From contig JAJTZB010000010.1 of the NCBI GenBank assembly GCA_032906765.1, forward strand, positions 1 to 46,583: DNA of 46,583 nucleotides. Direction: 5' to 3'. The notes under the pieces are model-generated. The model had not been told where the DNA came from. It did not search any database and saw only the letters and a program-made list of their open reading frames with translations. The position numbers and the translations under genes are program-made. Shown piece after piece: positions 35,679-39,032 of this stretch (position 1 is its first letter; every line of letters starts with the position of its first letter). The stretch is from Nitrososphaerales archaeon (GTDB lineage: Archaea > Thermoproteota > Nitrososphaeria > Nitrososphaerales > Gagatemarchaeaceae).

Positions 35679-37004
35679 CTAACGGTACGTCAGGGATCCC
35701 CATTTCCTTAGGGCGGCAGCGAGTTCGGGACTCTTCTTGGCGTAGTCGTTGATGTCGTGCCCTTCCATGTAGCAATCTATAGCGTCTCTGAGCGCCTTGG
35801 CGCCGGCGCGCCCGCCGTCCGGATGTCCCCATATCCCCCCACCCATCTGCACAACCAAGTCCGTGCCAAGCATGTCCAGCAGAGGACGGAGAAGACCGAC
35901 GTGAAGCCCTCCCGAACTCACGGGCAAGACAGGCTTCTTCCCGTACCAGCTCTGTTCCAGCGTCCAGCCCACTCCTTGGCTGCTGCCCTTTGTCAGTTTC
36001 TCTTGCAGTCCGAGTACCTCCTCCTTGGATGCCTCGAGCTTGCCTATCACCGTCCCGATGTGGAGCTGGTCCACCCCTATCAGCCTCGCTGTCTCAGCCA
36101 GAACTGCCATCGACATGCCGTGCGTGGGATTCCGTGTGAACGCGGCGTGGAATGCCCTGTGTGCGTGGATTGCAAGACCCAGGTCAGCGCACACGTCTCG
36201 CAGAGTTTCCAACGCAGCCCAGCCTGCAGTGCAAATGTCCACCATGACATACTCTCCGCCCAGCTGGTGGACAAGTCTCGCGCGCCTTTCCATCTCCCTT
36301 GTTTCTGCGGTGATGTTGATCAGGTAGCTCTTCCCCTCTCCGGTTTCCTTCTCGGCCCTGTCTCTGTACGAGAATGTGAGCCGAGCGCGCTTCTCGAACG
36401 AGTTGAAGCTTTGGCTGGTCAAGTTCTCGTCATCCTTCAGGAGGTCCAAACCTCCGCTCCACGCTTCGTAGGCGTGACGGGCATGCTCGACGTAGGTGAG
36501 GCCCAGCTTCGGCTTCGGCACGGACGCTGTGAGCGGTCTCTTCGGTACCCTCATGAACTTCCTAATGCCAGATATGCCGAACTGGGGTCCTCGAAAGCTA
36601 CGGACAATCTCTCTGGGCCATATTACGTCCACCAGCCTCAGTTCCTTGACCGCCTTCATTCCGAAGACGTTTCCGGCGATGGAACTGAGAATCTGCGGCA
36701 TGTTGGCCCCTTCGAAGAGTCCAGGAGGGTAGTAGACTCGCACCATGAAGCCGGAGATGTCGTAGGCTTTCGCCATCAGTCGCCTAACCCTTGGTGTGAG
36801 CGTGGTCAGCGTGGTCCAGGTCCCGACGCTGCTCTCCGACGCCACCCTGCCGGCTGCGTCCTCCACTGTGAAGCCTCGGGCGGGGGTGATTCTGAACAAG
36901 GCAATCAGGTCTCCTCCCTTGGGATTGCTCTTGACATCCACGAAGTCGTGATACCATTCTACTTCGCGGTCGGAGGCTTGGGCGCGGGCTCTCTTCTGGG
37001 CCAT
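35679..37004 (-). CDS. rbcL: Form III ribulose-1,5-bisphosphate carboxylase large subunit
   Basis: Carboxylates ribulose-1,5-bisphosphate to two 3-phosphoglycerates. 441 residues from ATG 37004. All active-site elements are present: KPKLG (164-168), the carbamylated Lys in GGLDLLKDDENL (Lys190, Asp192, Glu193), HAHRAFHAA (280-288), loop 6 HIGTVIGKLE (Lys322), SSGGLH (363-368) and GGGIWGHPDG (388-397). No small subunit gene is seen, as is usual for form III. The start is set by a TATA box (37027-37033, reverse strand) 26 bases upstream; an earlier ATG at 37037 would lie upstream of this TATA. It belongs with R15P isomerase in nucleoside-sugar breakdown, not necessarily autotrophy. Confidence 0.94.
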   Translation of the reverse strand: MAQKRARAQASDREVEWYHDFVDVKSNPKGGDLIALFRITPARGFTVEDAAGRVASESSVGTWTTLTTLTPRVRRLMAKAYDISGFMVRVYYPPGLFEGANMPQILSSIAGNVFGMKAVKELRLVDVIWPREIVRSFRGPQFGISGIRKFMRVPKRPLTASVPKPKLGLTYVEHARHAYEAWSGGLDLLKDDENLTSQSFNSFEKRARLTFSYRDRAEKETGEGKSYLINITAETREMERRARLVHQLGGEYVMVDICTAGWAALETLRDVCADLGLAIHAHRAFHAAFTRNPTHGMSMAVLAETARLIGVDQLHIGTVIGKLEASKEEVLGLQEKLTKGSSQGVGWTLEQSWYGKKPVLPVSSGGLHVGLLRPLLDMLGTDLVVQMGGGIWGHPDGGRAGAKALRDAIDCYMEGHDINDYAKKSPELAAALRKWGSLTYR

Positions 37005-37026
37005 CAGGGTTCCAAGCGTGTGCAAG

Positions 37027-37033
37027 CATATAG
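37027..37033 (-). promoter_or_regulatory. TATA box of the RuBisCO gene
   Basis: The reverse-strand sequence ctatatg is centred 26 bases before ATG 37004, predicting a leaderless message. The next 215 bases up to the S26e gene show no further gene; the only other signal is the S26e TATA (37216-37222). Confidence 0.5.
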
Positions 37034-37253
37034 TCATTTTCTCGTAGCCGCAGCCGCTTCTGATGGCATGTGCCGACTGGCTGCTCGGCGACGCATCCCG
37101 AGGAAGGTCTGCCAGATGCGGCAGGTGGGTGCGACGACTAGGACCCAGAGTGCTCTGGCCGGTACTCCCCAGATAGCCAGCGACGAGTTGCCTGAACCAC
37201 GGCGACCTAGCAGTCTTTTTAAAGAGGCCTCGGAGCGAAGTCCTAGCTTATTT

Positions 37254-37529
37254 TTGTCCAAGAAGAGAAAGAGTCGCGGCCGTTCCAAGGGAGGCAAGGG
37301 GAGGAGCGGCACCATCTACTGCAGCAACTGCGGAGCCTCGGTGCCTAGGGACAAGGCAAAGAAGGTCACAACAAGACTCTCTATGGTCGAACCGACCCTC
37401 GCGAGGGAGCTCAGGCAGGCCGGAGCTTACATTGCAGCACCCACGACAGTTCGCTATTACTGCGTGAGTTGCGCGGTTCATTATGGAATCGTGAAGGTCA
37501 GGGCAAAAACTGAGCGACGAAACTGGTAA
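37254..37529 (+). CDS. rps26e: 30S ribosomal protein S26e
   Basis: Small-subunit ribosomal protein found in TACK archaea and eukaryotes. 91 residues: basic start SKKRKSRGRSKGGKGRSG, first zinc pair YCSNCGASVPRDKAKKV, then LARELRQAGAYIAAP and the second pair YYCVSCAVHYGIVKVRAK. TTG 37254 is chosen; a TATA-like tttttaaa lies ~33 bases upstream. The last 25 codons (37455-37529) have a second, differently coded copy at 38490-38564, after an intervening endonuclease-like gene. The present 3' end therefore looks replaced during an insertion, while the reading frame stays complete. Confidence 0.9.
   Translation: MSKKRKSRGRSKGGKGRSGTIYCSNCGASVPRDKAKKVTTRLSMVEPTLARELRQAGAYIAAPTTVRYYCVSCAVHYGIVKVRAKTERRNW
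37455..37529 (+). repeat. S26e 3' end, functional left copy
   Basis: Encodes YYCVSCAVHYGIVKVRAK followed by TERRNW and TAA. Compared with the right copy it shares 48 of 75 bases by hand alignment, while 18 of 24 residues are the same. Confidence 0.85.
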
Positions 37530-37676
37530 TCTTGGGCCAGAGCTACCCTAGAAAGCCAATCCCAGCCGGATGAGGTTCGTGAATAGAAGCCAATCTTAGT
37601 TTCAGCCAAGTCCACCGAAAAGAGTGCCCGCAAGCATTCCAGCTTTATCACCGACCAGCGAACCCGGCATGCCAAT

Positions 37677-38477
37677 TTGTGCCCGGGTAGTCGCCACGTC
37701 GAACATCTCCTCGTCGAGAGATATGCTGAGGCAATCAAGGTCACCGTCTTTCCAAGCGGAGAAAGAAGAATTAGGAGAGATCCCTCGAGAGAGACCGTCC
37801 AAGCGGCGTTCAATGAATTAGGAACTCATATCGCAGTCGCGTCCGCCTTCGGCGTGAGTCGAGCGGTCGTGAAGCGATGGCTCAGAGATTACTCCTTGAC
37901 TGTCACGTCGCGACCCGAGGTAGGGCTGTCGAATTACATCAGAAGACGCCTAGCCTCTGAGGATGACAGGACGAAGGTTGCGCAGTGGGTCATGGACGAG
38001 GGCTCGATTTCTGTTGCGTTCTTCAAGAGGACCGACCTTACATCATTGGTGGTCTGCGGCAGCATGAACGATTTCGACGTTCTCTCAGAAATCTCCAACA
38101 TCCTTGCGGCGCCCATCACTACCTCATGAGGCCCCAGGCCGACCGTGCTGCCGATGGGGGCTGTCAAGGTCCATGCAGCAAAAGCGTACGCTCTGCTTGA
38201 GGTACTTGGAAACCGTCTCAGCGGTCTAAAAGCCATGGAGGCTAAGGCAGCTCTGAACTTCTTCCCACGCTCCGGGAGCGTAAGGGGGAGGCACACTACT
38301 GATGAGTTCCTAGTTCCTGTATGGAGGGAGTACGCTCACGAGGCGTTGAAAGCGTGGAACTCGAAGCGGAGGGTCAAGCTGGGAGAAACTCAGATTGGTG
38401 AATGGGCCGCAAGCTGGCTTGAGGGAAGAATCAAGAGGGCGCGGAGGTTTATTGACCGCGCTGATGCTCAACAGTAG
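37677..38477 (+). pseudogene. HTH plus LAGLIDADG-like homing endonuclease ORF with in-frame TGA
   Basis: One frame runs from TTG 37677 to TAG 38477, interrupted only by TGA at 38127-38129. Before the stop: an N-terminal helix-turn-helix (GTHIAVASAFGVSRAVVKRW, residues ~49-68), then AQWVMDEGSISVAFF, like the first LAGLIDADG helix with its acidic residue, and DFDVLSEISNILAAP. After the stop the same frame continues with VHAAKAYALLEVLGNRLSGL and KAMEAKAALNFF, the pattern that normally follows in LAGLIDADG proteins. The TGA therefore splits a single protein into 150 and ~115 residues. It may be recent inactivation, or read-through. A TATA-like ctttatca (37643-37650) lies ~30 bases upstream. The family call is by pattern only. 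Confidence 0.55.
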
Positions 38478-38489
38478 ACGTCCTCGACT

Positions 38490-38564
38490 GATTACTGCAT
38501 CAGCTGCAGCGTCCACTACGGGATAGTCAAGGTAAGAGCGAAGAGCGAAAGGAAAGGCTGGTAG
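38490..38564 (+). repeat. Orphan S26e 3' end, displaced right copy
   Basis: Reads DYCISCSVHYGIVKVRAK, then SERKGW and TAG. There is no start codon or upstream S26e sequence in frame; homology to S26e begins abruptly at attactgc. It encodes the second zinc-binding Cys pair of S26e, so it is a remnant of a real gene end, not chance. Confidence 0.85.
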
Positions 38565-38702: not shown

Positions 38703-39032
38703 TTGGCGAGACGCATGGCTTATGAACGCCTCAGGGAGTCGCTGACGCGCGGCAACCTTTGGCTCTACATTCTCACGACACTCGAGGGATCTGACGCTTC
38801 TCCGGGAGAGGTCAGGGAGAGAGTGAGGGAAAGGTTTGGGTTCTCTGCTGCCGGGATAACGTTCTACTCGGTTCTTTACAGGCTGAGAAGAGAGGGTCTC
38901 GTGAGGAAGGCATCCGGTGAGTTCCGCTCGACGTACGAGATCACGGGAAAGGGAAGGGAGGAACTCGAGCGGGCAAGGAGGCTAATCAAGGAGGTTGGAG
39001 GATGGATGGAACGGCCTGCGAGAGGGACCTAG
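38703..39032 (+). CDS. PadR-like winged-helix transcriptional regulator
   Basis: 109 residues from TTG 38703 (ATG 38715 would remove four). The pattern LWLYILTTLEGSDASPGEVR, then SAAGITFYSVLYRLRREGLV and YEITGKGREELERARRLI is the PadR winged helix with its C-terminal dimer helix. Ligand and target genes are unknown. A TATA-like cgttattga lies ~20-30 bases upstream. Its 3' end overlaps the convergent CDP-alcohol phosphatidyltransferase gene by 47 bases. The 138 bases between the orphan S26e end and this gene contain nothing else I can name. Confidence 0.8.
   Translation: MARRMAYERLRESLTRGNLWLYILTTLEGSDASPGEVRERVRERFGFSAAGITFYSVLYRLRREGLVRKASGEFRSTYEITGKGREELERARRLIKEVGGWMERPARGT

Follow-up and report, generated by a model that had tools for sequence, protein, structure and literature searches.

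A probable gene-end replacement homing element at the ribosomal protein S26e gene of a Nitrososphaerales archaeon

The gene for ribosomal protein S26e in a Nitrososphaerales archaeon ends in a divergent 3' segment, followed by a predicted endonuclease gene and, beyond that, by the gene's own former end. We consider this arrangement, which lies in a window of 46,583 nucleotides (the whole stretch of DNA that was analysed), likely to be a gene-end replacement homing element, whose endonuclease would cut S26e alleles that lack the insert and whose carried gene end would resist cutting. The features concerned, all on the forward strand, are the following:

37257..37529, + strand: functional S26e gene (Pfam PF01283, 9e-23), with a likely TTG start; a chimera of the native body and the carried 3' end
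37425..37529, + strand: S26e 3' block co-mobile with the endonuclease, from about codons 56-63 onward (start approximate), marked by a drop in GC3
37530..37676, + strand: spacer from the S26e stop to the endonuclease ORF, dissimilar to the regions 3' of S26e in relatives
37677..38477, + strand: ORF of 267 codons for a predicted HTH and single-motif LAGLIDADG endonuclease, with an in-frame TGA at 38127-38129
38490..38564, + strand: orphan native S26e 3' end (Pfam S26e, 1.5e-5), with a native-like GC3 of 0.78
38703..39032, + strand: PadR-like gene (PF03551, 6.5e-6), the native downstream neighbour of S26e, which marks the old gene end

The left copy of the S26e end (37455-37529) encodes YYCVSCAVHYGIVKVRAKTERRNW followed by a stop, and the right copy (38490-38564) encodes DYCISCSVHYGIVKVRAKSERKGW followed by a stop. 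The left copy is the duplicated part of the carried block and the counterpart of the right copy; the donor-like block itself begins upstream of the repeat, near codons 56-63. When recomputed, the counts given in the first-pass annotation proved exact: the copies agree at 48 of 75 bases and at 18 of 24 residues, and of the 17 shared residues other than Trp, 13 have a different codon. Because both copies match Pfam Ribosomal_S26e, the right copy is not a chance resemblance, and its score against a profile built from insert-free tails is 93 (shuffled sequences: mean 13, maximum 20). All 34 S26e genes compared from the family align without gaps until the last codons. At these positions the synonymous-codon difference between the two copies is 76%, which is above the usual level: pairs of insert-free species differ by 49% on average (sd 14%), and 2.9% of such pairs reach 76%. 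The occurrence of ATTACTGC at both copies was considered as a target-site duplication and rejected, as the ordinary homology of two S26e ends is expected to give it.

A gene end duplicated on either side of an insert is also what a site-specific integrative element would leave if it inserted at an attachment site in the gene and rebuilt the gene end there, in the manner of integrases at tRNA genes. We give this explanation almost no credence: the insert, about 1 kb long, encodes a predicted LAGLIDADG protein and no integrase or recombinase, and attachment repeats should be near identical, whereas only 48 of 75 bases agree here.

It is the right copy that represents the native gene end. The first-pass annotation had proposed that empty sites should match this copy, and insert-free relatives do match it better than the left one (up to 92% over 60 nt, compared with at most 80%), the right copy agreeing with G023 at 55/60 positions (92%) and with G018 at 53/60 (88%). 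In the insert-free genomes G016 and G018, PadR is the first gene after S26e and a CDP-alcohol phosphatidyltransferase-like gene the second; the window has the same PadR gene, which comes after the right copy. The match of insert-free relatives to the orphan and the S26e-PadR synteny together identify the orphan as the old end of the S26e gene. Nor does it belong to a second S26e, a circumstance that would have spoken against the original proposal: the genome contains one S26e gene and the orphan fragment, nothing more, and the fragment has PadR downstream of it, like native S26e in G016 and G018. A search of 400 genomes of the order for a donor of the left tail found nothing closer than members of the family.

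Close homologues of the endonuclease, sought in 300 genomes of the order, are confined to the family of the window genome (G000). Five of the six, from other genera of that family (G015, G032, G035, G009 and G006), come immediately after S26e, on the same strand and 57-98 bp downstream, with 41-58% identity; with G000, these are the six carriers. In all six the S26e stop precedes the endonuclease ORF, leaving an intact gene in an unspliced layout. An endonuclease borne by an intein or intron, which would split the host frame and have to be spliced out, does not fit this layout, since S26e reaches its stop ahead of the ORF. Three carriers have an orphan S26e end beyond the endonuclease, namely G000, G035 (38 nt retained) and G015 (a decayed stretch of about 28 nt); each scores above shuffled sequences (p 0.005 or lower), and no such end was found in G032, G009 or G006. 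The search for homologues suggested at the outset thus yielded related ORFs adjoining S26e in other genera, two of them with orphan ends of their own. Only three of the six carriers show insertion with duplication directly, and the differing orphan lengths agree with erosion after insertion.

The insert is missing from most family members, a patchy distribution among genomes that appear to be mostly metagenome bins and include no sister-strain pair with and without it. Viral contigs contained no relative of the endonuclease, and a viral vehicle is therefore not supported; a search of genome contigs with the G015 protein matched only its own record, and the spacer (37530-37676) gave no blastn match outside its own genome. 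The sixth close homologue (G010:C103, L061/L038) stands immediately 5' of an ABCE1-like gene. As a side observation, the S26e gene of G010 is insert-free yet has an AT-shifted tail, possibly a ghost left on relocation of the element. We also noted that the orphan end in G035 (G035:C77:12730-12766) and the functional carried tail of G000 share 84% identity over 37 nt, which might faintly hint at repeated rounds in which the tail of an earlier element was displaced, as in WHO clusters.

In the six carriers the S26e 3' end travels with the endonuclease, as GC3 falls toward the gene end in all six and not in non-carriers or in other endonuclease-flanked genes. As a group, the carriers (n=6) have a normal GC3 of ~0.8 to about codon 56 and of ~0.5 from there to the stop, over the last ~30 codons. 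On average the tail differs in GC3 from the body by -0.205 in the six carriers, against +0.004 in the 28 non-carriers (permutation p 1.2e-4, on a small sample of six carriers with short tails); for the window the value is -0.15. Within genus g7 (3/21) and within genus g3 (2/8) the lowest values are those of carriers, which speaks against an artefact of shared ancestry. Identity between carrier and native tails is lower than predicted from the gene bodies (p 0.002), and 55-70% of their synonymous codons differ, compared with 49% among non-carriers. Set against insert-free alleles, the carriers thus have a divergent host 3' end joined to a non-divergent 5' part. In one carrier, G032, the tail is AT-rich and of the ISCSV protein type, which sets it apart from the other carriers, although the endonuclease is close to that of G035; here the histories of tail and endonuclease are not perfectly linked. 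At the protein level, the S26e ends of the family are of two types, VSCAV and ISCSV, scattered over genera as if ends had been repeatedly exchanged.

The gene for 3-hydroxyacyl-CoA dehydrogenase provides a second case of a carried gene end. A related endonuclease gene lies on the opposite strand at its 3' end in G007, G016 and G035, and the dehydrogenase gene ends of carriers are AT-shifted (exact p 0.007, from three carriers). A displaced native 3' end behind the endonuclease is clear at the G007 HBD gene too: the orphan end, ERKSGKGFYEWGSPSSTKSSSGKA followed by a stop, matches the same gene of G004 at 46/57 nt, compared with 26/57 for the functional G007 end.

Related HTH-LAGLIDADG genes, often with two motifs, are also found directly 5' of L10e in seven family genomes (L087 (G000:C6), L082, L083, L084, L085, L086 and L089) and between rps9 and rpoN in three genera (L088 (G000:C7), L092 and L090). 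No codon shift or recoding was found at the adjoining L10e 5' end (p 0.10), and no shift at the flanking S9 3' end or rpoN 5' end. Such unaltered gene ends, together with the co-conversion of flanks by the free-standing endonucleases of phage (T4), would suit an ordinary homing gene that stands free in the spacer 3' of S26e, its divergent neighbouring end being a passive track of co-conversion or interspecies transfer with no self-protection. We regard this as unlikely: the orphan native end places the target inside the gene and not in the spacer, every carrier has a divergent S26e end, which is hence not incidental, and a native end carried along with the endonuclease would recreate the target.

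A further account, which we hold to be very improbable, invokes local mutation or composition, by which DNA beside an AT-richer endonuclease gene drifts toward AT, and takes the orphan for the product of an ancient tandem duplication of the S26e 3' end. The GC3 of the carrier endonuclease genes (0.50-0.63) is indeed below that of the S26e body (0.70-0.81), with the tail intermediate or lower, but the ends of S9, rpoN and L10e beside related endonucleases show no shift, the shift in S26e is block-like with its onset ~30 codons before the stop, and relatives match the orphan, not the functional copy.

Two minor observations concern the L10e loci. In G008, an orphan 3' half of L10e (L084:1320-1586, minus strand; G008:C64) lies ~3 kb downstream of a complete L10e and is 82% identical to it, the orphan and functional copies being equally distant from relatives. 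Just upstream of the L10e-associated endonuclease, at L082:4236-4676 and in L084, there is a small ORF that by eye resembles a PD-(D/E)XK nuclease (PDFFLPKLDLVIECWRS), for which Pfam gave no match.

The endonuclease ORF of the window (37677-38477) is a single frame broken by the one in-frame TGA only; it is a probable pseudogene or assembly error, and this copy is probably losing activity. Against Pfam the ORF matched no family except a weak helix-turn-helix, and sequence searches of Pfam and the PDB together detected the HTH and no LAGLIDADG domain. In an alignment of seven homologues, the motif AQW(L/I/V)(M/V/I)DE(G/A) is kept and its D-E pair is invariant (D110 and E111 in A1). We read the fold from an AlphaFold model of the intact G015 homologue (m85be885bfa55, mean pLDDT 82.9), in which an N-terminal HTH is followed by an alpha-beta-beta-alpha-beta-beta-alpha domain and then by C-terminal helices. 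The predicted domain has the element order of the LAGLIDADG fold, with a LAGLIDADG helix that ends in an acidic residue, and Foldseek matched the model to I-CvuI, I-MsoI, I-CreI and I-Vdi141I at E 1e-4 to 1e-3. The nuclease homology suspected from the letters alone is thus upheld by the model, which predicts a LAGLIDADG homing endonuclease fold with putative nuclease activity. Between carriers, dN is about 0.25-0.35 and dS is saturated, so the protein is under purifying selection in the relatives.

Although the predicted nuclease domain shares the fold of the I-CreI, I-MsoI, I-CvuI and I-Vdi141I enzymes, these are intron-encoded, whereas no intron or intein is seen at S26e, and the S26e protein adds the N-terminal helix-turn-helix and C-terminal helices to the shared domain. 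Its relation to the I-CreI group is invisible to sequence profiles.

According to the gene-end replacement model, the mobile unit would comprise the divergent S26e 3' end (the last ~25-32 codons), a short spacer and the HTH-LAGLIDADG endonuclease gene. We infer that the endonuclease would cut insert-free S26e alleles near codons 56-67 and that elements would pass between cells. Repair from an element-bearing copy would then use the S26e body as left homology and place the right junction at the old gene end, and its product would be a chimeric but intact S26e, the endonuclease gene and the displaced native end. As the replaced end keeps the protein and alters the DNA, the element's own chromosome should escape cutting.

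A gene-end-replacement homing model has been proposed, and partly tested, for the yeast WHO elements at FBA1 in Torulaspora and Lachancea (Coughlan et al., 2020, eLife; PMC7282813). Resistance in WHO is due to a divergent 3' end that moves together with the endonuclease, and the mechanism suggested here is therefore not new in principle. The first-pass annotation had opposed a recoded gene end to one captured from a divergent allele; this is in part a false choice, as in WHO the divergent travelling end itself gives resistance. The WHO and S26e elements both have an unspliced endonuclease gene downstream of a host gene with a replaced, divergent 3' end. WHO also resembles the S26e and dehydrogenase elements in leaving the former 3' end as a fragment and in the chimeric evolution of the host gene, and the archaeal elements more generally in occupying further loci, with the endonuclease gene in either orientation. 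However, WHO proteins are intein-derived and have a zinc finger, whereas the archaeal protein has a single LAGLIDADG motif and an N-terminal HTH. Membership of the WHO family by descent (intein-derived, two-motif, zinc finger) was accordingly rejected, neither the alignment nor Pfam revealing a zinc finger; because the protein type differs, the S26e element would work in the manner of WHO and yet not be WHO by descent. The archaeal elements differ further in their host, in their host genes (S26e and 3-hydroxyacyl-CoA dehydrogenase), in that no multi-element clusters were seen, and in that cleavage and resistance are here putative.

Gene hybrids with a comparable anatomy are known from fungal mitochondrial mORFs, at atp6 of Allomyces and at atp6, atp9, cox2 and nad3 of Glomus (PMC3630166). 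In these, as at S26e, an endonuclease ORF brings a foreign C-terminal end, the native end lies downstream and is closer to relatives, and the differences between the two ends are mostly synonymous. The mORF hybrids are mitochondrial, have mostly been interpreted as horizontal transfer of the end, involve GIY-YIG or other LAGLIDADG types, and are in some cases fused in frame. The intronless homing of phage T4 (such as that of SegF) is also S26e-like, in that a free-standing endonuclease stands beside its target gene, flanks are co-converted and resistance arises through sequence divergence. The free-standing endonucleases of T4, which belong to a phage and to other nuclease families, are not known to leave a duplicated orphan gene end, unlike the S26e element.

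No earlier archaeal report of this arrangement was found in the literature searched, which comprised open-access papers. The S26e element is apparently an archaeal counterpart of WHO, unrelated to it and independently evolved, and the recurrence of this logic on archaeal chromosomes, at the gene of an essential ribosomal protein, in cells without meiosis and with another type of endonuclease, suggests convergent evolution. It would be in effect a natural rescue drive, cutting an essential gene and supplying a resistant end. On a broader reading, which we hold with as much doubt as belief, an undescribed archaeal HTH-LAGLIDADG superfamily may have colonised the ends of core genes (S26e and 3-hydroxyacyl-CoA dehydrogenase, with a rescue gene end in these two, and L10e, S9/rpoN and ABCE1, without visible end replacement), as a naturally evolved and apparently independent parallel to both the WHO elements and engineered rescue gene drives, with repeated replacement of the S26e 3' end and ghost tails after loss. 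Core marker genes regarded as vertical can be chimeric, a point of consequence for phylogenies based on ribosomal proteins, and the S26e system is small and amenable to direct testing in vitro. Finally, a 452 aa ORF that by eye is RuBisCO large subunit-like lies in the window at 35679-37037 on the minus strand, divergent from S26e.
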